Assembly (NCBI GenBank): GCA_964034945.1
Contig: OZ035960.1
Location: forward strand, 82,026,148-82,090,147
Origin: Chrysopilus asiliformis
Lineage: Eukaryota > Arthropoda > Insecta > Diptera > Rhagionidae
DNA length: 64,000 nucleotides
Reading direction: 5' to 3'
In this document: in pieces, positions 5,586 through 52,814 of the stretch
How positions within the stretch are numbered: the first letter of the stretch is position 1
Layout of the letters: every line of letters starts with the position of its first letter
Program-made: the position numbers and the translations under genes
Notes under the pieces: model-generated
Seen by the model: the letters and a program-made list of their open reading frames with translations, nothing else
Databases searched by the model: none
Told to the model about the DNA's origin: nothing

Positions 5586-5784
5586 AATCCATTACCATCA
5601 AATAACAGAAAAACCTATTCAATAACCATAACGGTTTCTATTTGATAACGAAAATTATATATAATAACAAAAAAAAAAAAAAAAAGGGGAATTTTGTATC
5701 AATATATAATAAATTTTTGAATTTGTATAAGCAAAACATCAAAACCAAAGGCAAAACATAATATGTATAAAGGATAAGATCTAG

Positions 5785-5816
<32 letters not shown>

Positions 5817-5866
5817 TAATAACAAATAAGTCTCAGTATATGTCAAAATAAAATAATAAGATATTT

Positions 5867-5905
<39 letters not shown>

Positions 5906-6062
5906 AAAACTAACTATAAGTCAGAATGCACACAAAAGAAAAAAAAAAAAAAAAGAATTTTTAAATATATATCCATAGGAATAGGTAAAACAAAGAAATA
6001 GACACTAACATTTTGATGACATTTCGAAAAATTACATTTTTCTTTCTTCAGGGGGTAAGGAA
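5586..6062 (+). repeat. A-rich 3' region and polypurine tract of E1
   Basis: Four A-runs (about 15 to 30 nt) and a TATATATA tract fill this stretch. The last 45 nt match the segment next to the 3' LTRs of C and D. They end in AGGGGGTAAGGAA, the likely polypurine tract, directly before the LTR. Unlike C and D, there is no antisense gene here. Confidence 0.7.
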
Positions 6063-7009
6063 TGTGATGAATTGCATTTCGACTTTTCCAAACCTGATGC
6101 AATCCATCACTTTGGCTAAAGCAAAAGGTACAAAGTTCCAAATCAGAACATTGAACCATTCACCATTCAATAAATTCAATAAAACTTCACAATCAAAATG
6201 CACAAGTGCACTCCGGTCACTGTACTTTGTACCCACCATAAGCCTTACCTTTCATCATAATAATAATTCCGCCATACAACCCAATGAACCCCAAAACGTA
6301 CAAAATACGTTTATCAAAGGCACGACCTCATATTTCATAACAATACTTCAACGTACAACTCAAGAAATCCCAAACGTACGAAATACGTTTATTGAAGACA
6401 CGCGACAAGCGCGATCCTATTTCACAACAATTTTATTGTTTTCATAATAATTGTATGCCGATCTTAATTCATAAACAACTTCACCAGGCCGGTCAAAATG
6501 CTGATTCTTCCAAATAGTTCTGAAAAATAATTTCACAATTCACCTTTGAATTGAAACTTTTACCTATATTGTAATTTCACAATGTAGGTTAATTAGGAAA
6601 TCGTCTGAACGACAAAGATTGACCAGGTCAGGAAGGTGATAAAAGCAAGGGACGACCGGTGAAGCAGCAGTTAGGGACAAGGTTTTGAGCTAGTGAGAAG
6701 CTCGGGAGTTAGTAAAAGATTTTAGAAAGGGTGAGAAAACGAGTTGAAGTCGAGAGTTAGAGAATTTTATTTTCTCGGTGTCGGAAAAACAGTTAGCTGA
6801 AAAATAGTCGGAAATTTACTGGAAACAAATCTGTTAATAGTGCATTACAAAAAATAATAATCGAGTAGTTTTAAAGTATAATAGTTTTAAAGTGTGTAAT
6901 TAAATAAGAAGAAATAACATTGTATATTAACTTGCCGTGAGAAACTTAATAAATGTTTGAAATTACCACAAAAGTGTTTTAACTTCGCCCAATCAGAAGA
7001 GGTGTCACA
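6063..7009 (+). repeat. 3' LTR of E1 (947 bp)
   Basis: Starts TGTGATGAATTGC and ends GTGTCACA (TG...CA). Its first ~50 nt form a hairpin (GTGATGAATTGCATT against AATGCAATCCATCAC in relatives). It contains two copies of an ACGTAC..TACGTTTAT repeat near 6297 and 6375. It is the same subfamily as the LTR of F (941 bp once that LTR's insertions are removed). Confidence 0.9.
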
Positions 7010-12324: not shown

Positions 12325-12965
12325 CTTGGGGACCAAAAATAATTTGAGAATTTTAGTAAAAAATCTGAAAAGCAAAAGTCTGGAGAAAATATAAAAAAGC
12401 CAAAAAATAATCTGAAAATTTTAGTAAAAAATCTGAAAAGCAAAAGTCTGGAGAAAATATAAAAAAAAAACCAAAAATAATTTGAAAATTTTAGAAAAAA
12501 ATCTGAAAAGCAAAAGTCTGGAGAAAATATAAAAAAGCCAAAAAATAATCTGAAAATTTTAGTAAAAAATCTGAAAAGCAAAAGTCTGGAGAAAATATAA
12601 AAAAAAACCAAAAATAATTTGAAAATTTTAGAGAAAAATCTGAAAAGCAAAAGTCTGGAGAAAATATAAAAAAGCCAAAAAATAATCTGAAAATTTTAGT
12701 AAAAAATCTGAAAAGCAAAAGTCTGGAGAAAATATAAAAAAAAAACCAAAAATAATTTGAAAATTTTAGAAAAAAATCTGAAAAGCAAAAGTCTGGAGAA
12801 AATATAAAAAAGCCAAAAAATAATCTGAAAATTTTAGTAAAAAATCTGAAAAGCAAAAGTCTGGAGAAAATATAAAAAAACCAAAAAAAAAAAAACAATC
12901 TGAAAATTTTAGTAAAAAATCTAAAAAGCAAGAGTCTGGAAAAAATCTACAAGGCTGAAAACTAG
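12325..12965 (-). repeat. 68-70 bp minisatellite (9 copies, 138-bp dimers)
   Basis: GCAAAAGTCTGGAGAAAATA recurs with spacings 68, 70, 68, 69, 68, 70, 68 and about 75 nt, alternating two variants, hence a 138-bp higher-order unit. Phe-rich minus-strand ORFs across it are artefacts of a stop-free repeat. A related T-rich repeat occupies the same place 3' of the gene in D (27396-27760). Confidence 0.85.
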
Positions 12966-13062: not shown

Positions 13063-13483
13063 TTATAATTTGACAATGGCCGAACCCCCGGGCTTGCAGA
13101 GAGTTCCCATATATTGAAGGCCGAGATCTTCAACAACGTAGACCCGCTGCATATTCAGCGGGGGACTCTCCATTTGGCCATACACCTTATGGCCCATGTC
13201 GTAGGGGAAGCACACTAATATCGTGTCTTCCCCTATTTCGTTCGCCAGAGTAATGTCGAGATACTCATTTACTAGCTCAAAGCTGCCCGCGCTGAGGCAG
13301 AAGGCTAGCATGAGCTCAAATTCCTTCATGATTTCTGGAATTCTCTCCCGACGAGATGGCGGCCAGTCATAATAAAGATGGCAGAATCCTGTTGGCTGTC
13401 GTATATCTGGAACCTAAGAAAAAAAGGGAAAATCTTTATTTAATAAAAAAAAAAAAGGGGGAAAATAAATAATAAACTTACAT
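13063..13483 (-). pseudogene. Broken copy of the spliced accessory gene (module B)
   Basis: AT (13483-13482), a 68-nt GTAAGT..CTTAG intron (13414-13481), then exon 2 starting with G, so the start codon is split exactly as in C and D. Codons 2-16 match, then a 25-nt deletion near 13348 shifts the frame. The remaining 88 codons to 13063 are open and highly similar to D (EYLDITLANE, MESPPLNMQRVY). The TATA/initiator region is missing because the rearrangement at 13527 cuts just upstream of exon 1. AATAAA lies at 13030-13025. Confidence 0.8.
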
Positions 13484-13526
13484 TATAACGGATGAGTCGT
13501 GCAGCTAGCAAAAGTTCTCGAACACT

Positions 13527-14503
13527 TAATCGTCTAGGGATTTTGCAGGGGCAAAATAAGCGATCATCATATTTTTGAAATTTATAAAACTCGTGAATGT
13601 GTGGGAGCCGATTAGGCTATATGCTTCACCTTTTAATTTGGACCTTAATACGGAGAGGAACATGGGAACAACTTCGGGCGCAAGGGTATCGTGAATCTGT
13701 TGAGCACAGTCTAGGAATTGCCTCAGATCTGTCTCTAATGTGTGTGTTCTCTCACCAGTGAACACTGGAACCATCAGGCTCACCAATTTTGAAATCTCAG
13801 TTAATGAAGACATTTTGTTTTCTATTTTTACCACTTTGTCTTTTTCACCAGAAATCAATTTATCAACCCGTGTTAAAAATTCGTGTATCGTTTTAGATAA
13901 CCTACTATTTTGCTGATCGGTCAGCTCTAAAGGTTCTAAAATATTACTACTAATGGAGTTTACCGACTCCTCACTATCTAAAATCACAAAGTTGTTATTG
14001 TCCCTATCTAAAACTATCTTTTCTCTAATATTCAAAATACTTTCAATCTTTTGACTTACGGATATGTTGTTGCCTGTTGAGGTGTTTCTTCGGAATATGT
14101 TGCCTTCCTGTTGTGCTGGTCCTTCGTTAGTTGCTGATGTTTCTGGAACTATGTCTCTGGGTCTGTGGTTGATTCTACTGGGTCCTGGGATGATACTGCT
14201 TTGTTGATTCCTCTTCGGTGTTTGGTTGAATAAATATTGTAGATCGTCAGCTATGGTGTAAATTTCGTCAACTTCGCGTTGTAGGTCTGGTGAAACTGGT
14301 TTGAAGGGGATCATGGAGAATTGTTGTACTTTACTTGCTGTATTGGTCTGGTCCTTCTTAGGTGTTGATTGTGGTTGAGGTGGGATTCCGTTGTAAAATT
14401 CGTCTGAACTTACTGAAGAACTTCTTCCTTCTGGTGTCTGGTACTTAGTTGTAGCTTTTCTTCTCGGATTTCGTCTGGTAAACTTTCGTAGTATGTTGGA
14501 CAT
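13527..14503 (-). pseudogene. gag: Gag of element B, truncated before the zinc knuckles
   Basis: About 325 codons, nearly identical to the start of D gag, beginning with a basic N-terminus (MSNILRKFTRRNPRRK). It stops at the junction inside TCGTCTAGGG, so the capsid C-terminus and all zinc knuckles are absent. Over the shared region it keeps the frame that D has lost near 35863. Confidence 0.88.
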
Positions 14504-22110: not shown

Positions 22111-23466
22111 TGTAACATAACGTGTCTTCACCTCGATGCGGCTAATAAATATTTTTGTGAAACTTTCACCCCAAAACAATAAAACAAAGTCACAAAATTT
22201 ATTTTAAAGATTTTTATTCACTTTAGATTAATTTGACAGTTTACACAAATTTTTATAATTTAGTTGGTTCACAATTTTTAGTCTTATTATCTTAGTTTGA
22301 ATTACCTCACAAAATCTTCACAATCTTGCTTAACCTAATTGGTTTAACGAATTCACAAATTTTAATCTTATTAACCTTTTATAATTTCATTTGAATAACT
22401 AAGTCTTCACCATCTTGATTAACCGAAAACTAAATTTTAATGTCTGAAGAACAAAAGTCTGAATTTTCTTCTTACTCAAATCACTTTTCCGAAAACTGTG
22501 TATTAAAATGAACTTCGTCGGTAGTTTCTCGAATTTAACAATTAAGATCCCTTAACAACTGGAAAAAGAAAAACTCAAAAACTCTTTTAAAATCTCTCCC
22601 AACTAACTGAACTCGAAAAACACTTAAAAACTCCTTTAAAAATTCTTAACATGACTTTTTAAAAACATAACTTTTCAAAATAGAATAACTCCCGATGACT
22701 TCTATCAAAGATAACTCTTAATAACCCTTCCAAAGCTCCAAACAAAAACTATAAAATCACTCCCTTGAGTCAGGTCTTAACACTTTCTTTTATAGGCTTG
22801 ACCTGCTCATTTTATTGATGGTGGGAATCTTAGTCACGTTGCCAAAACAGGTGCAAGTAACACTTGACCTAATTCTGGGTGACGGAAATAAAAATTGTAT
22901 TGTCATGTAATGCTAATTCGCGTATTTCACTGTTGTGAAATAAGATCAAAACATTTGTATGGAAATATGAACGCGTTTGTCGCGTGCTTCGTTCTTTTCG
23001 CTGATTGGCATTTTAATGTTGGATCTATGGCGGGTGCGTTGACCGACGTTATTTAGAGTTTTGATGATTTCGCATAATGTGTTTGAGAAAGATATATTGA
23101 CAATTTTGCCTAGGGTTTATGTGCAGGTGTTTATGCAGTTATATGGCGGGTGCGTTGACCTACGTTATTTAGGTGAATTGAAGAGTTTCGATGATTTTGC
23201 ATAATGGCATATGGAAGATCCAATTTTGTATAGGGTTTAAGCAGGGGCATTGACCGGGCTGCATAGGAAAGTAATAAGAATTGCATATGAATTGCTTATG
23301 TTGCTCAAAGGATGGGTCAATGTTCTGGCTTAATACTTTGTACCTGTTGTTTTAGGTAAAGTGACTTGAAGAATGGGTCAATGTTCTGAATGAATACTTT
23401 GTACCTGTTGTTTTTAGGTTAAGTGATGGATTGCATTCTGGAAAAGTCGAAATGCAATTCATCACA
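22111..23466 (-). repeat. 3' LTR of C (1356 bp)
   Basis: The plus strand starts TGTAACATAACG and ends CATTCATCACA-type (..ATTCATCACA). It matches 45932-47298 but lacks 11 bp near 23057 and has a few substitutions. Confidence 0.95.
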
Positions 23467-23522
23467 TTCCTTACCCCCTGAAGAAAGAAAAATGTAATTT
23501 TTCGATGTCAACCAAAATGGGT

Positions 23523-23552
23523 TATAAAAATGATAGTCATCTCTTGTCAGTT
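23523..23552 (+). promoter_or_regulatory. TATA/initiator core promoter of the antisense gene in C
   Basis: TATAAAAA at 23523 and TCAGTT at 23547-23552, with the Inr A (23549) 26 nt from the TATA start. It is a textbook arthropod arrangement. It lies just inside the 3' LTR and overlaps nothing coding. Confidence 0.75.
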
Positions 23553-23611
23553 TTAATTGTGCGTGAGTCTTTTGTTGGAAACTGCCGTCTACCAATTTAC
23601 TAATTTGCAAA

Positions 23612-24019
23612 ATGTAAGTTATTTTTATTTTAATTTCAATCCATAAAATCAATTTTTATTTCAGGTTCCATGTTTACAGTAGCCCTAACGATTCAGCTAT
23701 ATTTGTCATGACGAGCCGACATCTGGTAGCAAGGGAGATTTGTGGGCATCTTGTGGTGGCGACGCCAGCGGTAATGGAAGAATTCCAGCTCATGCTGGCG
23801 TTCTGTTTAAGTGCTGACAATTTCCATGAGGTGAACGAGTACCTGGACATGACCCTGTCCAGCGAGGTAGGGGAGAACACTATCTTAGTGTGCTTCCCTT
23901 ATGACATAGGTCATAGGATTTTTGGCTGTTTGGAATCGCCCCCGCTGAATATGCAGCGGGTTTACGCGGTGGAGGGGCTTGGTCTCCGTGGTAAATTTGG
24001 ATCGATGTTAAAAATCTAA
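23612..24019 (+). CDS. Spliced antisense accessory gene of C, 118 aa, unknown function
   Basis: The start codon is split: AT at 23612-23613, a 51-nt GTAAGT..TTTCAG intron (23614-23664), and G at 23665. The ORF then runs to TAA at 24017-24019. Predicted start of transcription 23549. The protein is small and soluble-looking, with no signal peptide or membrane span. Most conserved between copies: an EFQLMLAFCLSA block, EYLD, VCFPYD and PLNMQRVYAVEGLGL. GC content is higher than in the element's own genes. It lies between env and the 3' LTR on the opposite strand and overlaps the env stop by 12 nt, tail to tail. Compared with D it lacks the minisatellite and has a different C-terminus. Confidence 0.8.
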
Positions 24020-25237
24020 AGTGGGGTAATTTAATTGAGCTTTTCGCCACGATATTGGTTCGTCTTGCAATTCGGGTAACGCGATTGAAATGGGTTCCTT
24101 GTTCGGGATAGGTTTAGACGTGTGTAATTCAGGGAGGGATAATGACATTGTTCCGTTTACGGGCATTGGGTCTCTTGTGAGTTTTCGTAACCTCCTTTTG
24201 AATTTTCTTGAAGTTTTCGTCAATTCTTTACGGCTCTTCCAAAATTTTTTAATTTTCATTATCATATAAATTATTCCTACCACCAAAATTATACTGAGTA
24301 CTGTAATGACTGCAGTGAATCTTGTGTCGTGTTTATCGTGTTTTTGTGATTGTTCTAATTCGTTCAGTTCTTTAAAAAGAACATCTAATGACACACTGTC
24401 ATCACGGAGATGTCTATTTAGTTCTTTATAGGATACCGGTTTTATTGGATCAGGTAAATCTAGTTTTGATGGATTTCTTTTTGTGAAATCAAATTTCGGT
24501 AAGGTTAATCTGTATAGGTCGGGTTGCACTGTGTTAAATGGCTTGACCTGTTTTGTGTGGTAGGGTAATACCATGTTTAGTATCTGGAAATGGCATGGTT
24601 TGAGGAGGGTAATAATTCCGGAAAATTGAAGATCGAATGAAGAATGTGTATCGTTACAGAAACATTGCAAGGTCATTGATGTCGATAGTGAATATAGCCA
24701 ACTGTTTAGGTGTTCGAGATTTACTACAAAATTAGGATTACTTTTTAAAATTCTGTGTGGACAGGATGGGGTTTGGAGGAAAGGTGTGGTTAGGGTATTT
24801 ATCATACATCGGGAAGAATCAAATCCAGTTATCATTGGTTTCTTGAATTCACATAGATAGTTGTGGGGATCGTTGTAGCTTTGTATTTTCTTACACAGAT
24901 CTACGAACTCGTTTTGCCGTAATTCCATAAATTGTTTGTTTTTTGTGTTATTAATAATATAATTAATATCCGAATCTATTAGGGAAAAATTTTGACCATT
25001 CAAGGGTGTTGGATAAAGGTATACTTTATTTACGCCAAACTCAACTTCTTCGGGTAGTGGAATCTGTATCTTTATCAGGATATTATTTTCCGTTTTAATG
25101 CTGTCTACCGTCATTAGATTTGATAAAGTGGCGAAGTCACGAGAAATTGGGGTTTTTGAGACATTGAGAAGTATATCCGACATTATTTTGTGGAGGTCGG
25201 AAGGTCTTAGGACTAAGGGATGTAAAGTTCTTTGAGA
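24008..25237 (-). pseudogene. env: C env, C-terminal part
   Basis: About 409 codons, from the segment after the heptad region through the cysteine-rich domain to a membrane span (TAVITVLSIILVVGIIYMI) and a basic tail. The N-terminal part is at 38528-39314; D sits between, with TSD GAGA (25234-25237 and 38528-38531), and the frame is kept across it. The first few codons of the larger ORF here come from the D LTR and do not belong to env. Confidence 0.92.
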
Positions 25238-26763
25238 TGTGACACTCAAAATTAAACTGTTCCTGAAATTGGTGATTGAAACGCTCAGTTTTCTTTTGGT
25301 TATTATTTATTTTTAGCTTTGTTAACTCTTCACAAACTTCTTTTTTTAGAATTAGATGTTTACAATTTTTTGATCACAATATTTTTGTTCTTTTTATTAA
25401 TTTCACTAAATTCACTATTACAAAGTGATTTATTACAAAGTTAGTACATCTACGTTTTATAATTTTTTGATTACAATGATTTCGTTCTTAAACTTCTCCA
25501 ACACAAACAAAACTTTAAAATTATTATTCTTAAAACAATATTCTACACAATTCTTAGGAAAAACCTCACTTCAAAGTTAAAAAAAAAACTCATTTCAAAA
25601 CTCTATAAGACTCTCTTTAAAAACTCAAAAAATAACTCTTTCTTTAAAAACTCAAAGGAAAAAACTCTTTTTAAAACAAAACTCAAAGAACTCTGGTAAA
25701 AAACTCAATAATAACTCTTTTTAAAACTCAATAATAACTCTTTTTAAAACTCAATAATAACTTCAAAACTTTCCTCAAAAACTCAAAAGATAAAACTCCT
25801 CGAGCCAGGCCTTGACACCTCCTTTTATAGGCGTCTTGACCTGTTCGATTAATTGATGGTGGGAATCCTAGTCACGTTGCTAAAACAGGTGCAAGTAACA
25901 TTTGACCTAATTCTGGGTGACGGAAATAAGAATTGCATTGTCATGTAATGCTAATTCGCGTATTTCACTGTTGTGAAATAAGATCAAAACATTTGTTGCA
26001 ATATGAGCGCGTTTGTCGCGTGCTTCGTTTTTTTGCTGGTTGGCATTTTTATGATTTTAATGTTGAATACATGTCGGGAGTGTTGACCGACGGTATGAAT
26101 TGAAGAGTTTTGATGATTTCGCATAATGTATCTGAAAAAGATATATTGACAATTTTGCCTAGGGTTTATGTGCAGGTGTTTATGCAGTTATATGGCGGGT
26201 GCGTTGACCTACGTTATTTAGGTGAATTGACGAGTTTCGATGATTTTGCATAATGATTTCTGAAAGGAGTATTGATCGGACCGGAAACTGATGTTTTTGT
26301 ATAGGGTTCGGATAGGTGCATTGACCGGACTGCATATGAAAGTGATAGGAATTGCTTGAGAATTGCCTATGTTGCTCAAGGGATGGTTCAATGCTCTGTC
26401 TTAATACTTTGTACCTATGGTTTTAGGTAAAGTGACTTGAAGAATGGGTCAATGTTCTGAATGAATACTTTGTACCCGTTGTTTTAGGTTAAGTGATGGA
26501 TTGCATTCTGGAAAAGTCGAAATGCAATTCATCACATTACGTTATTTATGAAAGATGTATTGATCGGACCGGAAACTGAAGGTTTCTTATAGAGTTTGGA
26601 TAGGTGCATTGACCGGGCTGCATAGGAAAGTATTAAGAATTGCATATGAATTGCTTATGTTGCTTGAAGAATGGTTCAATGCTCTGTCTTAATACTTTGT
26701 ACCTATTGTTTTAGGTAAAGTGATGGATTGCATTCTGGAAAAGTCGAAATGCAATTCATCACA
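25238..26763 (-). repeat. 3' LTR of D (1526 bp)
   Basis: TGTGACACTC...ATTCATCACA in plus orientation. The LTR-start hairpin occurs twice, at the end (26722-26763) and ~230 bp inside (26492-26533), because the terminal ~230 bp are duplicated. The 5' LTR has the same duplication. Confidence 0.96.
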
Positions 26764-26819: not shown

Positions 26820-26850
26820 CATAAATACGACAGGTCTCTTCTTGGTAGTT
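26820..26850 (+). promoter_or_regulatory. Core promoter of the antisense gene in D
   Basis: CATAAATA at 26820 and GTAGTT at 26845-26850 align with TATAAAAA and TCAGTT of C at the same spacing. Both boxes are weaker matches to consensus. Confidence 0.5.
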
Positions 26851-26898
26851 TTAATTGTTTGCGGACACCTTTGATTGCTGCACATCTCAACCGTTACC

Positions 26899-27351
26899 AT
26901 GTAAGTTTTTCTCCTTTTTTTTTTCTTTTTTCAGGTTTGTGCGTTTTTATAAATTTTTTTTTTTTTTCTTTTTCATAGGTTCCACGTATACGATAGTCAG
27001 CACGATTCGGCTCTCTTCATCATGACCGGCCGCCAATTAATCGGGAGGGAATTTTGTGGTCACTTGGTGGTGACTACCCCAGAGATAATGGAGGAGTTCC
27101 AGCTTATGCTTGCATTTTGCCTCAGCGCGGGGACCTTCGATTTGGTGAACGAGTACCTGGACATCACGTTGGCGAACGAGGTTGGGGAAGACGCAATCTT
27201 AGTGTGTTTCCCCTGCGATATGGGCCATAAAGTATATGGCCACATGGAGAGCCCCCCGCTGAATATGCAGCGGGTTTACGCGGTGGAGGGGCTTGGTCTC
27301 CATTTTATGGGGACCTTGTGTCAGCCTACGAATTTAGTTAAGAATTTTTAA
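26899..27351 (+). CDS. Spliced antisense accessory gene of D, 124 aa, unknown function
   Basis: AT at 26899-26900, a 78-nt intron (26901-26978, GTAAGT..TTCATAG), and G at 26979; open to TAA at 27349-27351. An upstream TTTTTTCAG near 26934 is a possible alternative acceptor, but the downstream one gives the N-terminus shared by all copies (MFHVYDSQ). Conserved blocks are as in C, with a GTLCQP tail. AATAAA at 27367 and 27371 supplies a polyadenylation signal. Opposite in strand to D and placed between env and the 3' LTR. Plant Ty3/gypsy elements carry unrelated antisense ORFs at this position; I know of no described insect counterpart. Confidence 0.8.
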
Positions 27352-27395
27352 AATTTGTATTAATGAAATAAATAAAGAAATTTTTAATAGAAAAA

Positions 27396-27765
27396 TTGCA
27401 TTTGTTTTTTATGTATTTGCTCCCGTTTTCAGTGTTTTGTTTCAGACTTTTGTGTTTTCGACATTTTTGTTTCAGCTTTTTATATCTTCTAGGTATTTTT
27501 TTTTTTTTTTTTTTTTCAATTTTCAGTGTTTTTCTACATTTTTGTTCAAGCTTTTTATATCTTTTTGGTCTTTCTAGGTATTTGTTTCAGTGTTTGGTTT
27601 CAGACTTTTGTGTTTTCTACAATTTTTTTTTTTTTTTTTTTTTTTTTTAGGTATTTCAATTTTCAGTGTTTTTCTACATTTTTGTTTCAGCTTTTTATAT
27701 CTTTTTGGTTTTTCTAGGTATTTGTTTCAATTTTCAGTGTTTTTCTACATTTTTGTTTCAGTCAA
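27396..27765 (+). repeat. T-rich ~70-bp minisatellite downstream of the D antisense gene
   Basis: Repeats of TTTTCAGTGTTTTTCTACAT with TTTCAGCTTTTTATATCT. Includes T18 and T23 runs. Shares CAGACTTTTG and TTTTTATAT with the minus strand of the module B repeat. ORFs through it are spurious. Confidence 0.8.
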
Positions 27766-28158
27766 AAGACATGTTTTTGATAGACAGGCGAATATTAATT
27801 TGCCGAATTAATTATATAAACCTTACATAAATATAATTAAACATTATTTTTATACTAATTTTATCATTATTAAGTTATATATTTAATTTATATAAATAGA
27901 TTTAAAAATAATTACTAAATCCAAGTATATATTTATTAAAATAAAATACTGATTTTTAATAATTTATTTTATAGCTTATCCCATAAAATATTAATATTAA
28001 ATTGTATTTATTTTTTCATAGAATTAAATGTGCCATTAAATTAAAATTTTCTAACCTTTTCTCCAAACTGAAACTACACTAAATTATCTTGTATTATATA
28101 GGATGTTATGTATTGATCTGGTGAAAAAGTACAGTAGTATTGGTACCAGAAAGTCAGA
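27766..28158. other. AT-rich spacer and edge block of the D accessory module
   Basis: 28033-28140 is the block shared, inverted, with 11989-12095. It ends 18 nt from the env stop. The rest is AT-rich DNA without genes. Confidence 0.6.
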
Positions 28159-30159
28159 TCAGAATTGCAACCCTAGACTGTTTTTCCCTTTGCTCTTCTG
28201 AAAAGACCAGTCATTTGTTTGTGGTTCTACTTCTAATGTAAAAATTTTATTTATTTCTGCACAATTATCCTGTTCCCTATTGACACTGTTTACGTTATTG
28301 ACGTCCTCACTTGAGATTTCGGGTAAAGCGATTTTTATGGGTTTTAATTTTCGATTTTTTGTTTTACGACTTTGTTTACACGATTTTATTCTAAACCGGT
28401 AGCCTACATACCCTATAAATATTAACAGTATTAACGAAAATATGATCCATTGCGCCGTTATGTGACCGTGGTATTTATCAATTTTCTCAGTTAAGGTGAG
28501 ATCCTTTATTTCTCTGTTAACGTGATCTAAAGCTATTTCTTCCGCCCTTAAGTCTTGATGTAATGAATCGTAGGAACTTACTTTTAGTTTTTCTGGTAGG
28601 GTTATTGGGTGTTGGTCGAAATGGCGTTCTATTAGGGTTGGTATTTTGAGGAGTGGTGTACGGTGGAATTCTGGTTGGTGGATGCGTAAGGTCTTAGTTT
28701 GTTTGAAGTGGAATGGTAGGCTTTGAGTCCCAATGTGAAATGTGCAGTCCTTAAATAAACTTAACACTCCAGTTTCCCTTAGCGTGAGAGATTCATGGTG
28801 ATTTTCGCAGAAGATTTGCAAATCTTTCTCAGTGTTGAAGACGTATAACCATTTGTTGGGTTGTTCCAGTGGTACCAAGTAGTCCGCTCTGTGACGCAAT
28901 ATCATATGAGGGCAACTTTCTGTCTCGGAAAACGTTGCTGTGAGCAAGTTCAGGAGGCAGTTCTGAGGAGTTAGGCCTGTAGTTAACGGTTTTGTTAGAT
29001 AACAAATAAATTGAATAGATTCCCCCAGTTCTTGAATTTTGTTACATGTATCTTTGAATTCGTTTCCTTCGAACTCTAGATATTCTTTATGTAAAGTGTT
29101 ATTGAGGATATAATTCGTTTTTGACTTTATGAGTGTGTACATCTTGCCGGTTGGAGTTGGCAAGTAATACACCTTCTGAATAGAAAATGAATTATGTTCG
29201 GGTATAGGGATTTGAATTTGCACCAAGATCCTATCGGTTAACTGGACGCTCTTGACCGATATTATATGAGTTAATGAGGCGAAATCTTTAGTTAGGAAGA
29301 CTGTATTGTTGATACAGTCGAGCCAGATATTTTTTAAATCTTGTGGACGTACTATTAATGGGTGAAGTTTGTTTTGACTTAGCGCATTTAGGATCGTAAA
29401 GGTGTCTCCTTGTTGCCTTTCAATTTGCTGTAACTTTGTAATCATTAGTAAGGTTACCTCATGAATTTCTGTTTGCAGTTCCAACTTTGTTATATCTTCT
29501 TGTGTTTTTTGTGTAGTTGCGTTCAGGCTACTTATTATCTGGTTAACTTTTGAACTAACTATTGCATATTGTTTGGTTAAATTGGCTAAAGGTTTACTCA
29601 GGGTATCGAAGTTTGATCTGATAACGGTTATTTGGTGTTTTAGGATTTCCTCCCTGGCCTTATTCCCGTCTTCCAAACTACTGAGCCTTTGATAAATTTC
29701 TTGTGCGTCATTGTCATCCATGACACCCGTTAAAAATTTTGCGGCCGTTCCCACGAAATTGAATAGTGAACGTTTAGTCCTGCTATGTGAAAAATACATT
29801 AGCTCTTTATGGTGCTCCACTATGTTAGAGGCCAGTCTTTCGATTTCATATTTCCATTCTGAGCACGTTTCGTTTTTTAGGTGCTTAGCCATTGACTTAT
29901 GATTAGCCATTTGTAAGGACCTACGTTGTGAATTGCATAATTCGTCTATTAGGGATGTACTTTGCTGTATGAATTCCAAAGTGGACTTCCAGTCTGGATG
30001 AGTTAATTGCGTTAACACTGTCCATTTTTTCTTGTAGAAGTATGCCGTTCCAATTTGCTCGAAGAATATGCCGGTTGGCTCCAGCGAGGTATACGATGCG
30101 ACTCTTGGGCTATCTTGTCCAGATGCTAATGTGATGGTGAGCATCACTACTAACAACAT
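28159..30159 (-). CDS. env: D envelope glycoprotein, intact
   Basis: 666 codons. Signal peptide over the first ~14-20 residues, furin-type site RTKR near residue 131 followed by SLFNFVGTAAKF, a heptad-repeat segment, a cysteine-rich ectodomain, a membrane span (IIFSLILLIFIGYVGY) near residue 575 and a basic tail. A 3' splice-like GTGAACAG precedes the ATG by about 6 nt. No lesion seen. Very close to E1 env. Confidence 0.93.
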   Translation of the reverse strand: MLLVVMLTITLASGQDSPRVASYTSLEPTGIFFEQIGTAYFYKKKWTVLTQLTHPDWKSTLEFIQQSTSLIDELCNSQRRSLQMANHKSMAKHLKNETCSEWKYEIERLASNIVEHHKELMYFSHSRTKRSLFNFVGTAAKFLTGVMDDNDAQEIYQRLSSLEDGNKAREEILKHQITVIRSNFDTLSKPLANLTKQYAIVSSKVNQIISSLNATTQKTQEDITKLELQTEIHEVTLLMITKLQQIERQQGDTFTILNALSQNKLHPLIVRPQDLKNIWLDCINNTVFLTKDFASLTHIISVKSVQLTDRILVQIQIPIPEHNSFSIQKVYYLPTPTGKMYTLIKSKTNYILNNTLHKEYLEFEGNEFKDTCNKIQELGESIQFICYLTKPLTTGLTPQNCLLNLLTATFSETESCPHMILRHRADYLVPLEQPNKWLYVFNTEKDLQIFCENHHESLTLRETGVLSLFKDCTFHIGTQSLPFHFKQTKTLRIHQPEFHRTPLLKIPTLIERHFDQHPITLPEKLKVSSYDSLHQDLRAEEIALDHVNREIKDLTLTEKIDKYHGHITAQWIIFSLILLIFIGYVGYRFRIKSCKQSRKTKNRKLKPIKIALPEISSEDVNNVNSVNREQDNCAEINKIFTLEVEPQTNDWSFQKSKGKNSLGLQF

Positions 30160-30255: not shown

Positions 30256-33200
30256 TTAATTTTCGTGTTTATCTCGACTAATATATTCTTTCAGTCGATT
30301 ATTATGGATGCGAACAAGTTTGTTGCGAATTTTTAGAACTGAGTTTACTGTACTAGGGGTTTCTTTGATTTCATATGGTCCTAACCAAATTGGACTTAAC
30401 TTATTTTTTCGAGTTTCGTTTTTTACAAGAACCCAATCTCCGACTTGGAAACTTTTGTTGACGGAATTTTTGTCGTAATAGGATTTGTTTTTTAGTTTGC
30501 TTGCCAATAGATTTTCTCTGGCCTTTTTGTACGCCTTTTGCAGTTTGTATTTTAACAGATGGTAATAATTTTCATCGTTATACAGTGGTTCTGGATCTCT
30601 TTTCACGCTTGTAGGAAGTTCAGCGGAAAAACCGTATAATAAGTCCATGGGAGTGAATTTGGTTGAAGCATGTATAGTGTTGTTATGCACGTGAACTGCC
30701 TCCCTAATCCATTCATCCCAAGTAGTCGGATATTCATTTACGAAATTTCGTAGGTATTCCGCCAGGGGTCGATGGGACCGTTCAAGTGCTCCATTAGTTT
30801 GAGGATGGTAAGCTGTTGTTTGTAACTTTCGAATTTTCAACAGTTTACACAATTTCTTGAATACGTCGCTCAAAAAATTGGTTCCTTGATCAGTGACCAA
30901 TTTCTTGGGTATTCTATACCTTGTAATAATTTGTTCATAGAATGCTTTAGCCACTGTCTCAGCTTCACAATTTTCTATTGCAACGCAATCGAAAAATCGG
31001 GTTAGGTCATCCTGGAACGTGAGAAGATATTTATTTCCGCTATTGGTTACTGGAAGTGGACCGACTATATCTAGATATACTTTGTCAAAGGGGAGTAGTG
31101 CCGTGTCTGTAATGACCATTGGCATACGCGTGTAGCGTGAATATTTGTTTACTCGACAACTTTTGACAAAGTTTTCGATGTCTTTCACCATATTTTTCCA
31201 CCGGTAATGGCGTCTTATTCGGTGGTAAGTTTTGAAAACTCCTTGGTGTCCGCCTAATGGACTATTATGGTAGGTCATGAGTACAGATTCTATTTCTTTT
31301 CGGTCAGTTAATTGCTGAATATTTTTTGTGGAAATAATTGGGTCAATAGAATCATCTAAAGTTTCAAAATTTTCACTTTGTTTATCTTTTTCATGGCCGT
31401 TATCAGGGGCATTGTCTTCGGGTAATTGCTGAGTTGCAGTTTTATCACATGAATTAGTTGTTGTTGTACTCTCGCTTTGATTTGGGTTTTCCATCTGTTG
31501 TTTATTTTGTTTACTTTGGCTTCGAGTTACAACTTGTATTCGTTGATGATTGTTGGTCGAATCGCTTATTTTATTCCTCACCTCTTGTTCCTCGGTTTTA
31601 GCCATACCGCTGGGTTTGTATAATTGTTCTTGAATCAAGTTTCTTGGGTCTTCGTCGAGCATTGTCTCTAACGAATTTTCATATTGTTGTTGTTGGGTTA
31701 TTTCATTGAGATTTTTATTATTTTTAGACGATGGAATTCGACTGAGGGCATCTGCTGCCGTGTTTAATTTACCTGCCTTGTACTGAATTTCGTAATCGTA
31801 ATCAGATAATTTGTGACGAAAACGTGTAAGACGAGTTGTAGTGTCCTTGACATTGAACACTCCTTTTAAAGGCCTATGGTCGGAGTAAACGATGAATTTA
31901 CGTCCTAGTAAATAACATCGAAAATGTTTAGTAGCCCAAACTATTGCTAGCAATTCTTTCTCTATTGTTGAATATCGGCGTTCAGCCTCATTCAAGGTTC
32001 GGCTAGCGTAGGCTACTGGCCTTTCGTCCTGCGATAGTATTGCTCCAAGTGCTTCTCCACTAGCATCTGTGGTTAACGCAAATGGTTTAAAAAAATCTGG
32101 ATATACCAGAAGAGGTGGAGATGTTAAGGCTTCTTTTAGTGTTTCGAATGCCTTTTCACATGATTCGTTCCACGCAAATTTACTACCCTTTCGAAGTAAT
32201 TTCGTAAGAGGTAAGGCCTTTTGGGCAAAATCTTCAATAAATTTTCTATAATAATTGGCAAGACCTAAGAAACTTTGTATTTGTCGAATAGTTTTTGGAC
32301 GTGGGAAATTCTTTACACATTCTATATTTTGGGGATCGGGGAGAGCGCCTTCTTTCGTACATTTGTGTCCTAAATAAATTACTTCCTTTTTGAGGAAGTG
32401 ACACTTCTCGGGTTGGAGTTTAAAATTGTGGATCCTGAGACGTTCGAAAATATCCATCAATTTTTGGTTATGGTCATCTAGGGTTTTCCCGTAAATGACC
32501 AAATCATCGATGTATATGAAACACTTTATTCCTTGTAACCCTGTCAAGGCGTGATTCATAGCTCTTTGGAATGTAGCAGGAGCCGATTTTAATCCAAACG
32601 GCATCCTGGTAAATTCGAAATGACCAAATGGAGTGCTAAACGCTGTTTTTTCTCGATCGTTTGGCTCAACTTGAATTTGATGATAGCCGCTAGCTAAGTC
32701 CAGTGTGGTGAAATAAGTAGAGTTTCCCAACTGGTCCAGAATCTCCTCGATTCTAGGCAGTGGAAAAGCGTCTCCAATAGTGACGTCATTCAGTTTCCTG
32801 AAATCCACCACTACTCTCCACTTCTTTTCGCCGTTTGCTCCCGCTTTCTTAGGTACTACTAAGAGAGGGGAGTTCCAGGGACTTTTGCTAGGTTGGACTA
32901 TTCCTTCTTCCACCATTTTATTAACTTGTTCGTTAATAACTTTTCGATGGGTTTCGGCCAGACGATAATTCTTTAAATTTAGAGCACCTTGGTCCTGCCG
33001 TATTGGTATTTTATGTGTAAGAACGTTAGAATGGGTTAATTTATCATTGGGAAGATGGAAAAGATCATGAAATTGCGAACAAATATTTATTATTGACTGC
33101 CGTTCTTCGTGATTTGCCTCTGGGTCCATTTGGATTGATTCGATAATTTCCCGAATCCTTTTATATGGAGGGGATTTAAACCGGTTAGGTTGGTCTAAAT

Positions 33201-34946
33201 TTTCTTGACACGAAAAAATTTTAAACTTTTTTGCTTTAACAATTTTTAGGGGCATGCTTTTCAAGGAGATTTGATGCGTATTTGAATTTAGTATGCTAAT
33301 TGTTATTTTTCCATTTAGGGGCCGCACTAGGGTGTTAGCTACGTACACTCCATCGGCGATTTCCCCGGACATACAAATAAGATCTTCATTTCCGCTTTGG
33401 ATTGGTATTTCGATTACCTTTTCCGTACGTGGGGGTATTATTAGATTTGCTGGATAATCATAAATTTTTTGAGAGAATTTTAGTTGTTCATTGTTCAGGT
33501 TATGTTTTTTGGTTAAATTAATGTCTGTATGTGCGGTTTTATTTTCCGCTGACGGCTTAAAAATTTGAATACTGAGTTCCTTTTCCAAAGATTTGCACAA
33601 ATTTCTAACATCATCTATTGTTTTGATAGAATTCCCTGTTTGTTTGGAGGGAAAGTTAATTGTTTGGATTTGAGTGGTATTTTTTGATTTGTTTAGATTA
33701 TTAGTAGATTTAGTTGATGAGCTAGTAGTGCTTTTTATTGGAACTGATTCAAATGGGTTTTGTTTTGACCCTGCTGCCTTCCCGAGTCGTCCTGTACGAC
33801 TGGGTTGTGAAATTTTCGCTATCTCGGCGTAAGATTTGGATGATTGGGCCACGACATTATTTGCTCGTGGTTCCGAACCTACGGTAGATAGATCACAAGT
33901 GACTATGTTATTCCATGTACCTGACCTTGATAATACCTTCTGAGTCGTGATCTCAGATTTGGTTGTTTTGTTCAAGGGGTCAGTGGAATTTTCTAGCTGT
34001 TTCACTTGTAGTGATTTTGGATTTTCAGAAGTTTTGTAAATCGGTTTATGATTATCGACCTGTCCATGTTCAGTATGAGCTTTCGATATTTGGACCAAAC
34101 CCTTCCTTGAGCTTGGATTCGAATTTGCATTTACCTGAGATTGAGCCGTTTCACTATTATATCGACCTGTCCTTAGCATCACTTTCTGAGTCGCGATTTC
34201 AGATTTTGTGATTTCGTGCAAGGAGTCATCTATAAAGTCAAATTTAAACTCATGCTCTGATTGCAGCGCTTCTATTGCTGGAAAATGGAGTCGTTTCATA
34301 ATACAATCGATTCTACTTCTATTCCATAAAATATCCCTTCCTATGATACCATCGCAAGGAACCGATTCATTATCGTTGACTACGTGAAATTGACAAGTCA
34401 ACGCTTCTTTATTTGGATCTCGCATCACAGCCGTCATTTTGGCTTCACAGATGCCTATCGATCGTTCAGATGCACCGTATAAACCAGTCAGAACTACTAG
34501 TCTATTTCCGCTAATCGGAGTACCGGGTTTCAAGATCGATCGTCTAATTAGACTTACATCTGCTCCTGTATCCACCAAAAATTGAACTTGCTTTTTACAA
34601 GCGATGTCAACATCCGCGGTTATTACTACCTCACGATAAAGTTTCTGGTATGGGATGATTATTTCATTAGTAGGCATGGGGTCGATTTTCTTTTGGGGTT
34701 TTGAGTTTTCGGGAGTTTTCTTGGATGGTTGAGACCTCATTGCAATAGGTTTTTTGGGTTTTAGAGTGGAGTTTTGAGATTTTAAGGGAGAATTTTGAGA
34801 ATTCATTGCAATGGGTTCATTAATGTTGGGAGTTGCTTTGGAGTCTTGAAGTTTAGTTGCAGAGGGTTGATTAATTATGTGAGTTTGCGATTTACACCAC
34901 TTTTTGCTTTGGTCTGAAGATGGGTGCGGAGCTTCAAACCTTATTG
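30256..34946 (-). CDS. pol: D pol: protease, RT, RNase H, integrase (integrase zinc finger damaged)
   Basis: Open from the gag overlap to 30256; the first ATG is at 34806. Protease VDTGADV (Asp about residue 79 from that ATG), RT with YIDDL, RNase H TDASGEALGAIL, and integrase with D,D,E in YLDIVG, TDQGTNF and NGALERSHR. A 9-nt in-frame deletion near 31155 removes three residues that include the last Cys of the HHCC finger (E1 has CRLC, D has CR). A long Asn/Gln-rich linker separates RNase H from integrase. Confidence 0.95.
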
Positions 34947-37001: not shown

Positions 37002-38527
37002 TGTGACACTCAAAATTAAACTGTTCCTGAAATTGGTGATTGAAACGCTCAGTTTTCTTTTGGTTATTATTTATTTTTAGCTTTGTTAACTCTTCACAAA
37101 CTTTTTTTTTTAGAATTAGATGTTTACAATTTTTTGATCACAATATTTTTGTTCTTTTTATTAATTTCACTAAATTCACTATTACAAAGTGATTTATTAC
37201 AAAGTTAGTACATCTACGTTTTATAATTTTTTGATTACAATGATTTCGTTCTTAAACTTCTCCAACACAAACAAAACTTTAAAATTATTATTCTTAAAAC
37301 AATATTCTACACAATTCTTAGGAAAAACCTCACTTCAAAGTTAAAAAAAAAACTCATTTCAAAACTCTATAAGACTCTCTTTAAAAACTCAAAAAATAAC
37401 TCTTTCTTTAAAAACTCAAAGGAAAAAACTCTTTTTAAAACAAAACTCAAAGAACTCTGGTAAAAAACTCAATAATAACTCTTTTTAAAACTCAATAATA
37501 ACTCTTTTTAAAACTCAATAATAACTTCAAAACTTTCCTCAAAAACTCAAAAGATAAAACTCCTCGAGCCAGGCCTTGACACCTCCTTTTATAGGCGTCT
37601 TGACCTGTTCGATTAATTGATGGTGGGAATCCTAGTCACGTTGCTAAAACAGGTGCAAGTAACATTTGACCTAATTCTGGGTGACGGAAATAAGAATTGC
37701 ATTGTCATGTAATGCTAATTCGCGTATTTCACTGTTGTGAAATAAGATCAAAACATTTGTTGCAATATGAGCGCGTTTGTCGCGTGCTTCGTTTTTTTGC
37801 TGGTTGGCATTTTTATGATTTTAATGTTGAATACATGTCGGGAGTGTTGACCGACGGTATGAATTGAAGAGTTTTGATGATTTCGCATAATGTATCTGAA
37901 AAAGATATATTGACAATTTTGCCTAGGGTTTATGTGCAGGTGTTTATGCAGTTATATGGCGGGTGCGTTGACCTACGTTATTTAGGTGAATTGACGAGTT
38001 TCGATGATTTTGCATAATGATTTCTGAAAGGAGTATTGATCGGACCGGAAACTGATGTTTTTGTATAGGGTTCGGATAGGTGCATTGACCGGACTGCATA
38101 TGAAAGTGATAGGAATTGCTTGAGAATTGCCTATGTTGCTCAAGGGATGGTTCAATGCTCTGTCTTAATACTTTGTACCTATGGTTTTAGGTAAAGTGAC
38201 TTGAAGAATGGGTCAATGTTCTGAATGAATACTTTGTACCCGTTGTTTTAGGTTAAGTGATGGATTGCATTCTGGAAAAGTCGAAATGCAATTCATCACA
38301 TTACGTTATTTATGAAAGATGTATTGATCGGACCGGAAACTGAAGGTTTCTTATAGAGTTTGGATAGGTGCATTGACCGGGCTGCATAGGAAAGTATTAA
38401 GAATTGCATATGAATTGCTTATGTTGCTTGAAGAATGGTTCAATGCTCTGTCTTAATACTTTGTACCTATTGTTTTAGGTAAAGTGATGGATTGCATTCT
38501 GGAAAAGTCGAAATGCAATTCATCACA
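37002..38527 (-). repeat. 5' LTR of D (1526 bp)
   Basis: Same length and nearly same sequence as 25238-26763. One C/T difference is seen near 37100. Contains the duplicated ~230-bp terminal segment. Confidence 0.96.
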
Positions 38528-39314
38528 GAGACAATGAATTTAGAATAGTGAAAATCTCGCCCTGCTGCGTTTCGATCCTTTGGAGTTTAGTCAGGATGAG
38601 GAGGATGGCCTCGACCGATTCTGCTTGTAGATCTAGTCTGTTCAAGTGACTAAGATTCGAATTATCCGTTTCGTTTAAACTTTTGAGAATTTTATTTAGT
38701 TTATTAGATATGATTTTATTTTGTTGGGTTAAATTTGTTAGAGGTTCACTGAGGCTGTTAAAATTTGATTTCATCAGTGTAATTTGTTTTCTGATAATTT
38801 CGTCTCGTTTCCCATTTCCTTTCTCTAAATTTTGCAGGCGGTCATGAATTTCCATGGCATCCTCGTTATCCATTACTCCAGTCAAACATTTCGCTGCGGT
38901 TCCAACGAAGTCAAATAAGGATCGCCTTGTTCGGTGGTGCGAGAAGATCATTAGTTCTTCGTGGTGTTCTTGTACAGTTCTGATTAGTCGTGATATTTCG
39001 TTTTTCCATTGTCCGCATACCTCGTCCTTGATTCCTCTGGCCTTGGTTGTCTGTCCCCGGGTCAATAGTTTTTCTCGCTCCGCACATAACTCACTCATGA
39101 GGGAAGAACTCTGTTGGAAAAATTCGACAGTATTTGTCCAGTTCGGGTATGTAATCTGAGTTAGTATGGTCCAACTCTTAGTGTAAACCCAGGCTGTTCC
39201 GATTTGTTCGAATAGAATTCCATTGGGATTAAGGGGTTTAATGGTTACAGCTGTATTAGGAGTCTGGGCCCCAATCCCCGTTAGGCATGCCAAGATGATT
39301 ATAGTCTGCATCAT
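38528..39314 (-). pseudogene. env: C env, N-terminal part
   Basis: Signal peptide (MMQTIIILACLTGIGAQ), furin-type HRTRR before SLFDFVGTAAKC, and heptad region; cut by D at 38528. A CCACTAG acceptor lies 6 nt upstream of the ATG. Continues at 25237. Confidence 0.92.
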
Positions 39315-39459: not shown

Positions 39460-42400
39460 TTAGCATATTGAGTAGAAGAATTTTATTCGGTTATTGTGTA
39501 CCCTAACTAATTTCTTTCCAATTAGAATGACGGAATTTACTGGATTAGGGATATCTTTTATTTCATATGGACCTTTCCATATAGGATCTAGTTTTGACTT
39601 TCTAACTTCATTACGAAGTAGTACTAGGTCTCCTATTTTATAGGTTATGTTGGAGGCAGTCCGATCGTAGTAATGTTTTGATTTATTTTTACTTGCCAAA
39701 ATATTTTTTCGAGCAATTTTATAGGCTGTTTGAAGCTTATATCGAAGAAGATAGTAATAATTTTCGTCATTATAAAGTGGTGCGGGTTCACGTTTGAGGT
39801 TGGTGGGGAGTTCGGTGGTAAAACCGAATAGAAGATCCATAGGAGTATATTTAGTGGATGAATGAATCGTATTGTTATGTACGTGGACCGCTTCTCTGAG
39901 CCATTGATCCCATGTCGTAGGGTGCTCGCTAACAAAGTTTCGAAGGTATTCTGCTAATGGACGATGAGTCCGTTCTAAGGTGCCGTTGGATTGGGGGTGA
40001 TATGCCGTAGTACGTAATTTGTGAATTTTTAGTAGTTTACACACTTGTTTGAAAACGTTGCTCAAGAAATTTGTACCTTGGTCGGTCACTAGTTTCTTTG
40101 GAATTCGATACCTTGTAATGATTTGTTCGTAAAATGCCTTAGCAACGGCTTCTGCTTCGCAATTATCTAGGGGAACGCAATCGAAGAAACGAGTTAGATC
40201 GTCCTCGAAAGTTAGGATATATTTGTTTCCTAAATTAGTGGTGGGTAATGGTCCTACAATATCCAAATATACTTTGTCAAAGGGCATGGACGCAGTGTCC
40301 GTGATTACCATAGGTAACCGAAAATGTTTTGACTGCTTATTCTTCTGACATTGAGGGCAATTTTTTATAAATTTTTCAATGTCTCGAAGCATGTTTTTCC
40401 ATCTGAAATATGTTCTGATCCGACTATAAGTCTTGTAGACTCCTTGATGACCTCCTAAAGGGGCATTGTGATAGGTTTTCAAGACAGTTTCTATTTCCTT
40501 AGGGTCGGTTAAGAACTCATATGTTTTACTTTGACCTAGAATTTCTTCTTCCAATGATGTTAAATCACTTGGCTCAGCATTTTCAATCGCTCCTATTTGA
40601 GAGTCGTTTTCGTTTACCTTGAACGGTGGGTGTTTTGAAACTTGAGAATCACTTAATTCGTTTGTTTGATTTTCTTCCACAATACATTTTGCCGCTTGTC
40701 TTTTTTGCGAGCGGGTGACGACACCAACGTTTGTTGTTTTTGTTTCTTTGGAGGAATTTTGATTCGGGTTTTCTAAGTAAGTGATTTTTCCATTTTTGCT
40801 ATAATCAACCATAACATTTTGACGGCTTTCGTCGTGCGCTGTTTTCTTAACATTTTGTTGTTGTAAATCTGTGTCATTAACATGGCTAGGGTGTTGATCG
40901 TAGGGAATTCTACTTAATGCATCAGCGGCGGTATTATGTTTACCTGCCTTGTATTCGATTACATATTCATAGTCTGATAATTTGTGCCTAAACCTGGTTA
41001 ACCTTGAGGTCGTATCTTTGATGTTAAAAACTCCTTTTAAAGGACGGTGGTCCGAATATACAATAAACTTTCTACCTAATAAATAACATCGGAAATGTTT
41101 GGTAGCCCATACGATGACTCGCAATTCTTTTTCGATCGTGGAATATCGGCGTTCCGCTTTGTTAAGTGTTCTACTTGCATATGCGATAGGACGTTCATCT
41201 TGTGCTAGTATTGCGCCCAATGCTTCCCCGCTGGCATCAGTCGTTAAAGTAAATGGTTTGGAAAAATCAGGATACACTAGTAACGGTGGATTAGTGAGTG
41301 CATTTCGAAGAGTTTGAAAAGAATCTTCACATTTAGCATCCCAATTAAATTTTTTACCCTTTTTTAGTAAATTAGTTAATGGCAAGGCCGTTTTTGAGAA
41401 GTTTTCGATAAATTTTCGGTAATAATTGGCTAAACCAAGGAAACTTTGAACTTGGCGAATGGTTCTGGGTTTGGGAAATTCTTGAACACATTTCACATTT
41501 TGAGGGTCGGGAAGTGCTCCTTTACTCGTGCACTTGTGACCTAAATAAATAACCTCTTTTCGGAGAAAATGACACTTTTCAGGTTGCAATTTTAAATTGT
41601 AGTTTCGTAGTCTTTGAAATACTTCAATCAATTTGTCATTATGATCATTTAAATTTTTTCCGTAGATTACTAAATCGTCAATGTATATAAAACATTTTAT
41701 TCCTTGCAATCCTGTCAGAGCATGGTTCATTGCTCTTTGGAAGGTAGCAGGAGCTGACTTGAGCCCGAATGGCATCCTTGTGAACTCGTAATGTCCAAAG
41801 GATGTGCTGAAGGCTGTTTTCTCTCGGTCTTTGGGGTCTACCTCTATTTGATGGTAGCCGCTAGCTAAATCCAAGGTAGTAAAGTATGTTGAGTTTCCTA
41901 ACTGGTCCAGAATTTCTTCAATTCTAGGCAGAGGAAAGGCGTCGCCAATAGTGACGTCATTCAGTTTCCTGAAGTCAATCACTACTCTCCATTTCTTTTC
42001 TCCATTAGCTCCCGGTTTTTTAGATACAACTAAAAGAGGGGAATTCCATGGACTTTTGCTAGGTTTAACAATGCCATCGTCGATCATTTGTTTAACTTGA
42101 TCGTATATAACTTCCCGTTGGATTTCTGGAAGGCGATAGTTTTTGAGATTGATCGGTGGTTGATCAGTCTTAGTGGGAATTTTATGTTTTAAAATGTTTG
42201 AATTAGATAATTTATCTCCGGGTAAATGAAATAGATCATGATATTGGGAACAGATATTGAGTATAGATCGTCTTTCTTCCTCGTTAAGAGATTCATCGAG
42301 TATTATAGACTCTGTAATCTGTTTAATGCGTTTGTACTTCAGTGGGGATTCTGTGTTGGTTTTTAAAGAGTTCAAAGCAAATATTTTATATTTTTTCATT

Positions 42401-50692: not shown

Positions 50693-50882
50693 ACGATATA
50701 CTACCCAATAGCAGAATAGTTGGTCTACCTACTCAAACGAATGGTTTTCTCAGTTGCATACCCCAAAAATTAGGCAAATTCTTAAATGTGTTAAAATTCT
50801 TTATATTTTCAAAAACTATGTATCTTACAGATTATTTTTAGAAAAAAAAGTAATGATAATTCATTTATTTAGACTAATTATA

Positions 50883-52244: not shown

Positions 52245-52814
52245 CCCAGCAATCCCGGGGTAAGCACTTTTTCAAATTCGAATTTGTGTTGGTGACCATG
52301 GCACTGTGTGTGTTATGTACATCGCCGCTGCCGCATGAAAAAATTAAAACAAAACAAAACGCACTGTTTTGACAGTGCAATAAAAAATAGTTAAGTGCGA
52401 ACGCGTTTTTTATCGGACATAAAAGATAAAAATTCAACATCAAGGAGTAAAAAAAGAATGTTTTAAAATAAATAATTAAATGTTTCTTTTAAAACAGTTT
52501 AGTTTTTAATTTTTAAACAATTTTTGGTGAGCATTTTCTTGGGAAAAAAGTGTTCATTACTTCTAGTGCAGTACTTATGTAAGTAATCCATGTAAGGAGT
52601 TCTGTAAGAGCTTATTTTCAGAATTTTTATAACCCCTTACAGAATACCTTATAGAACTACTTCTGGAGAAGCGGACGGTGCAATTACATGTATTCACAGA
52701 CACGAAGTATATAGCTGAATTTTTTCCCGGGGCCCTATCAAAGTTTCATTTCTAGTAAGCATTACTTTCAGGCATTATTTCACTCCTCTAAAAAGTACTT
52801 CTGTGTTTGCTGGG
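52245..52814. mobile_element. Short non-autonomous relative of element X
   Basis: Bounded by CCCAGCAA and TTGCTGGG, with GG on both sides as possible 2-bp duplication (52243-52244 and 52815-52816 by one alignment). Its right ~260 bp are the inverse of the left end of X (53018-53250) with few differences. Confidence 0.65.

Follow-up and report, generated by a model that had tools for sequence, protein, structure and literature searches.

A predicted spliced antisense gene between env and the 3' LTR of errantivirus-like elements in Chrysopilus asiliformis

Introduction

How could a retroelement that must pass through a genomic RNA carry a gene with an intron, and is the small open reading frame (ORF) lying opposite gag, pol and env in two LTR elements of the fly Chrysopilus asiliformis such a gene? 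The question is raised by a 64-kb stretch of DNA, here called the window, which contains nested LTR elements. Two of these, designated C and D, both lie on the minus strand and contain, between env and the 3' LTR, a small gene on the opposite strand, with 118 codons in C and 124 codons in D and one predicted intron in each (Table 1). A preliminary description of this DNA had proposed an intron-bearing antisense gene in this interval of both elements, a proposal borne out by the ORFs, the shared splice signals and the selection described below. The best explanation, with a probability of about 0.85 that excludes the role of the protein, is that these sequences are a genuine accessory gene of an errantivirus-like lineage, transcribed in antisense, spliced and coding for a protein.

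Elements Carrying the Gene

Elements C and D are genuine LTR insertions, flanked by 4-bp target duplications (TTAG for C, GAGA for D). The near identity of their LTR pairs (99.1% and 99.9%, respectively) indicates that both insertions are recent, and D is inserted within the env of C. Because reverse transcriptase, RNase H and integrase domains and a Baculo_F envelope are present in both, C and D are classed as errantivirus-like, i.e., env-bearing Ty3/gypsy elements, a classification based on domains, gene order and LTRs with duplications. Pfam searches found RVT_1, RNaseH, integrase and Baculo_F in C, D and a further element on the plus strand, A, while RVP was found in D alone. The gene order is gag-pol-env, with gag assigned by position; the gag ORFs gave no Pfam match. 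The sequence following the 5' LTR (TGGCGCAGT...) is one that we take to resemble a serine-tRNA primer site. Searches for relatives with the D env, the D pol and a pol alignment gave 6, 24 and 53 pattern matches in viral_contigs, respectively, none of which was confirmed.

Element A is a relative of D, its pol within the window being 92% identical to that of D in protein (dS 0.41). Nevertheless, the interval between its env and LTR lacks the gene, and no tblastn match to the C or D antisense protein was found there, which indicates that related elements can dispense with it.

The elements may have exchanged parts, as judged from their uneven similarity. An alignment of 767 columns between the LTRs of C and D (22743-23468 vs. 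25776-26538, about half of each LTR) shows 86% identity, whereas synonymous sites are saturated between their pol genes (39460-42846 vs. 30256-34806). Conversely, A and D share pol (90% identity in DNA) but hardly the LTR. These patterns suggest that LTRs and coding parts have been swapped between lineages.

Table 1. Positions of elements, predicted gene parts and sequence motifs in the 64-kb window.
Feature	Positions	Strand	Remarks
3' LTR, element C	22111-23466	-	partner LTR 45932-47298; 99.1% identity, 1369 columns
Polypurine tract region, C	23467-23485	-	adjoins 3' LTR; identical in A; 1 base differs in D
TATA-like box, gene C	23523-23530	+	26 nt before A of initiator-like TCAGT; motif only
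Predicted exon 1, gene C	23549-23613	+	+1 at 23549 from motif; ends in AT
Predicted intron, gene C	23614-23664	+	51 nt; GTAAGT...TTTCAG
Exon 2/coding sequence, gene C	23665-24019	+	118 aa including split ATG
7-bp hairpin, C	23941-23960		perfect inverted repeat within ORF
env of C, 3' part (Baculo_F)	24008-25249	-	Pfam PF12259; split by D insertion, rest at 38523-39314
pol of C	39460-42846	-	
3' LTR, element D	25238-26763	-	partner LTR 37002-38527; 99.9% identity, 1527 columns
TATA-like box, gene D	26820-26827	+	27 nt before A of initiator-like GTAGT; motif only
Predicted exon 1, gene D	26847-26900	+	+1 at 26847; ends in AT
Predicted intron, gene D	26901-26978	+	78 nt; GTAAGT...CATAG
Exon 2/coding sequence, gene D	26979-27351	+	124 aa including split ATG
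7-bp hairpin, D	27255-27274		same repeat as in C
Two overlapping AATAAA signals, gene D	27367-27376	+	starts 27367 and 27371
env of D (Baculo_F)	28159-30159	-	Pfam PF12259, E 8.6e-30
pol of D	30256-34806	-	RVP, RVT_1, RNaseH, integrase domains
Exon 2, copy B	13063-13413	-	25-nt deletion breaks frame
7-bp hairpin, B	13143-13162		same repeat as in C
Predicted intron, copy B	13414-13481	-	68 nt
env-to-LTR interval, A	5586-6062		477 nt, T-rich on minus strand; gene absent

Gene Copies and Evidence for Selection

The antisense gene is richer in GC than its surroundings, as previously noted, with values of 0.49-0.51 against 0.36-0.41 in the seven pol and env ORFs or ORF pieces compared; GC3 is 0.57-0.65 against 0.32-0.43 in pol and env ORFs. 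Only one of the six reading frames is open in both C and D, and the other five hold 2 to 10 stops per copy. In C, exon 2 and env meet tail to tail, the final 12 nt of exon 2 being shared with the end of env.

Comparison of the window with itself revealed a third copy of the gene, B, which the preliminary description of the gene had not mentioned. It lies at about 13.06-13.5 kb on the minus strand and has the same donor, acceptor and split ATG. Its spliced reading as it stands comprises 29 aa. Near 13.52 kb (13515-13528) it joins gag sequence that is 93% identical to the gag of D. Since the gene and gag share a strand at this junction, unlike in C and D, copy B looks like a rearranged remnant with an inversion-type or chimeric junction. 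All comparisons of the gene involve three copies from one window, one of them broken.

Differences between copies are concentrated at third codon positions, amounting to 22/13/48 by codon position for C-D (107 codons; p = 6.5e-6), 12/5/55 for B-D (p = 5e-14) and 18/14/57 for B-C (p = 5e-9), each by chi-square against even shares. For C-D, the NG86 method gave a dN/dS of 0.107 over 107 codons (dN 0.166, dS 1.56) and 0.122 over all 116 aligned codons, and LWL85 gave a dN of 0.160 and a dS of 1.00; the LWL85 values for B-D were 0.082 and 1.25. With dS near or at saturation, and with values missing from YN00 (C-D and B-C) and NG86 (B-C), these ratios are approximate; all those obtainable nevertheless lie far below 1. 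The level seen for C-D equals that of pol between A and D (0.106). Strong purifying selection acts on the antisense proteins. Homologues in other element copies and dN/dS across copies were the checks put forward in the preliminary description; the former are present in C, D and the broken B, and the latter is about 0.11 for C-D, far below the neutral value.

Homology of the Antisense Protein

Searches of family collections at E values up to 10 found no Pfam family for the C or D protein, although the HMMER filters drop most weak matches in such a search, and nothing credible in PHROGs (phrog_19077, E 0.37, D only) or NCBIfam (NirD, E 0.13, C only). A search of 5.8 billion proteins returned four candidates, none at E <= 10, and scans for the gene pattern returned 75 matches in viral_contigs and 56 in genome_contigs, of which 0 were confirmed. 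A control search with the D env also came back empty (5020 candidates, none at E <= 1e-5), so the missing homologues say little about the antisense gene, including about its rarity. AlphaFold2 gave mean pLDDT values of 35 from two sequences and 40 from four rows, without a confident fold. With neither a credible homologue nor a fold, the role of the protein can be argued only by analogy.

These searches bear on the origin of the gene. It may have been captured from a host in genomic, intron-containing form and retained as a mimic or decoy of a host protein, an account of origin and role that is compatible with an antisense accessory gene as the best explanation but is itself rather unlikely. 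The elevated GC3, the host-like intron and the absence of the gene from A would fit such a capture, and so would a weak match of the D protein to the ribosomal protein eL20/RPL18A. By sequence, the D protein matched 18 PDB sequences at E values up to 10, comprising 17 eL20 proteins (best E 0.089) and one invertase. When scored on an eL20 profile built from two sequences, it also beat all reported shuffles (500 were supplied, and 322 sequences received a score in total), and none of 150 column shuffles attained the hhalign score for eL20. On the other hand, eL20 was the best pick from 177,635 PDB sequences, its hhalign probability was 5%, and C, for which the PDB search gave a single match (E 1.2), scored below one shuffle. 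The eL20 match was missing both for C and for the two-sequence C+D profile, which had no match in the PDB, and the absence of a credible family in Pfam, PHROGs and NCBIfam likewise argues against a captured gene. The candidate homology to eL20/RPL18A was rejected on these grounds.

Predicted Intron and Split Start Codon

In C, D and B, the predicted intron interrupts the start codon, such that exon 1 ends with AT and exon 2 starts with G. Unspliced antisense RNA from C or D would read ATG-TAA, and exon 1 of these copies holds no other ATG; translation of the full-length protein should therefore depend on splicing. Introns next to the start codon are found in many host genes, so a split ATG alone is not unique. 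The donor GTAAGT and the acceptor YAG|GTTCC are the same in all three copies, while the interior of the intron can hardly be aligned.

To what extent such signals occur elsewhere is indicated by a scan of both strands of the 64 kb for GTAAGT, a pyrimidine tract and YAGG within 35-120 nt. Three of the five strict candidates are the copies of the antisense gene. Joining the exons yields long ORFs in C and D alone, and the two candidates outside the gene give ORFs of just 2 and 6 aa. Because the rule was fixed after the gene was known, the scan indicates rarity and is not an independent prediction.

These observations weigh on the idea that the gene is real but intronless, with translation starting at an internal ATG (codon 16) and the splice-like signals arising by chance. 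An in-frame ATG is indeed present at this place in C, D and B, and the excess of third-position differences upstream of it is weak between C and D (4/2/7). However, the stretch of 14 codons preceding the internal ATG changes in the manner of coding sequence between B and D (2/0/9), if less clearly between B and C (4/2/9), and chance would have to account for splice signals at the same place in three of three copies around a diverged intron interior, as well as for the share of gene copies among the strict candidates. An intronless gene is consequently improbable.

The preliminary description held that an intron in such an element is stable only if the genomic RNA reads it antisense, which overstates the case. 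Retroviruses keep sense introns because unspliced RNA gets packaged, and the env of errantiviruses is itself produced by splicing. The antisense layout lets the gene keep its intron through the RNA stage but is not the sole way of doing so.

Transcription Signals

Promoter motifs for the antisense gene lie just outside the 3' LTR in both elements. Boxes of the TATA and initiator type had been described here at normal spacing; the boxes are present, but their separation of 26-27 nt is a little short of the textbook distance of 30-31. Owing to this spacing, and to the reading of the D box as CATAAATA, a promoter belonging to the antisense gene is plausible and no more, as judged from short motifs. 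At the other end, the polyadenylation signals previously reported for D were recovered at 27367 and 27371, and copy B holds two signals of the AATAAA/ATTAAA type. No AATAAA or ATTAAA was found for gene C from 24000 to 25250, and a C transcript would thus probably run into env in antisense. The 1.2 kb without a canonical poly(A) signal in C, the short TATA spacing, the lack of the gene in A and the small number of copies, three in a single window with one broken, were counted against the antisense gene.

Transcripts of C that enter env could point to the antisense RNA as the working product, pairing with the env or the 3' end of the genomic RNA and damping the element, as in micropia, whose antisense RNAs lack coding capacity according to excerpts of a published account (PMC7264820). 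The overlap of gene C with the end of env agrees with this idea. Selection, however, acts on the protein, since amino acids are kept while synonymous sites are near saturation, and a function of the RNA could only be additional; an RNA product in place of a protein is highly improbable. Chance ORFs and a chance intron in a low-complexity region, for which only the short length speaks, can be set aside as practically negligible in view of a dN/dS of about 0.1 with near-saturated synonymous sites, a third copy and a single open frame.

Proposed Expression and Relation to Known Systems

Under the preferred reading of a spliced, protein-coding gene, RNA polymerase II would start just outside the LTR, as the motifs suggest, and produce a short antisense pre-mRNA, from which one small intron would be removed. 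Splicing would join AT to G and thereby create the start codon of an acidic protein of 118-124 aa (pI 5.2 in C and 4.7 in D). The sense genomic RNA would hold the intron in reverse and could not splice it out, so that the gene would pass intact through reverse transcription. Purifying selection over near-saturating synonymous distances implies that the antisense protein helps the element.

Antisense accessory genes have precedents among LTR elements, namely in deltaretroviruses and plant gypsy elements. As described in excerpts of PMC10186651, HBZ of HTLV-1 and APH-2, APH-3 and APH-4 of HTLV-2, HTLV-3 and HTLV-4 are encoded by antisense genes at the 3' end, are expressed from spliced transcripts originating on the 3' LTR side and affect viral transcription. 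The likeness is one of layout, in that a protein ORF lies antisense to gag-pol-env at the 3' end. In C and D, however, the promoter motifs are found beyond the LTR, the ATG is divided by the predicted intron and the elements are of the Ty3/gypsy type with a Baculo_F env. An unspliced coding form exists for HBZ as well (PMC10186651, in part), whereas unspliced RNA from C and D would meet a stop directly after the ATG.

Among plant elements, GENE23 of maize Grande and the antisense ORFs of RIRE2 and Retand likewise occupy the region between pol and the 3' LTR, and GENE23, whose product is nuclear, is transcribed from its own promoter just upstream (excerpts of PMC11963269 and PMC7264820 for the former, of PMC7264820 for the latter). 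The word "intron" occurs 0 times in PMC11963269 and PMC7264820, and the start codon predicted to be made by splicing is a further difference from the known systems. Retand proteins mostly carry TRP28 (PF04195) in the part of the source available (PMC11963269), a domain that Pfam does not find in C or D. About half of the Retand elements surveyed hold tandem arrays in the same interval (PMC11963269, in part). Tandem arrays also closely follow the antisense gene in B (12332-12946, 68-nt units, 8.8 copies) and D (27496-27778, 140 nt, 2.0 copies), in the interval occupied in Retand.

In insects, micropia of Drosophila hydei offers an antisense promoter in an LTR element, differing in that its antisense RNAs are noncoding (PMC7264820, in part). 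The sORF1 and sORF2 genes of the MDG1 group resemble the antisense gene as small accessory proteins with low dN/dS, but sORF2 has a forward orientation, lies mostly upstream of gag and encodes a membrane protein resembling viral fusogens (excerpts of PMC11952523). No protein-coding antisense gene of an errantivirus or insect LTR element was found among the matches listed from open-access PubMed Central, including the accessible text of PMC8622228, PMC12992720, PMC5408684 and PMC13172572. Within that scope, the earlier statement that antisense ORFs are known from plant gypsy elements, here Grande and Retand, and not from insects holds.

By analogy with HBZ/APH and GENE23, the protein might be a trans-acting regulator of the element or the host cell, a tentative assignment that falls somewhat short of even odds. 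Host mimicry is an unlikely role, and interference with host silencing is slightly less likely still. A broader proposal, possible but somewhat more doubtful than the regulatory role, is that animal Ty3/gypsy retroviruses evolved a spliced antisense gene with a splice-made ATG independently of HTLV and the plant elements, that its protein is specialised for regulation or for antagonising silencing, and that the ATG acts as a built-in check restricting translation to nuclear, correctly processed antisense RNA.

If transcribed, the gene would add a case, apparently of independent origin, to those of deltaretroviruses and plant gypsy elements. Errantiviruses are a model group for piRNA defence, and since antisense transcription of retroelements can feed small-RNA silencing, a protein gene kept on that strand poses a testable paradox. 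The shared intron offers a clean readout in the form of spliced antisense reads.

Conserved Stretch and Additional Repeats

C and D share an identical stretch of about 50 nt towards the end of the ORF (23938-23987 and 27252-27301), despite near-saturated synonymous sites elsewhere. The corresponding run of 15 identical codons has a permutation p of 0.001. Its first part is the hairpin, which is kept in B and forms a run of six codons shared by the three copies (p 0.02). Allowing three mismatches or fewer, a search for the hairpin gave three matches in the window, one per gene copy, where 0.24 were expected. RNA folding of the region was mixed, with z-scores from -0.2 to -3.8 over six pieces, and Rfam at gathering thresholds gave 0 matches in the window. 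The identity of the ~50 nt may reflect either an overlapping RNA or DNA signal or recent recombination.

Other repeats occur elsewhere in the window. An LTR-like sequence of the A type (59585-60181) is 83% identical to 6063-6650 and is directly adjoined by a pol fragment (59398-59548) that matches the integrase part of the C pol. Two inverted repeats were observed, one with arms at 52574-52814 and 53018-53258 (95% complementary) and one with arms at 50698-50884 and 52815-53001 (97% complementary), the latter enclosing a DDE_3 transposase ORF at 50965-51621.
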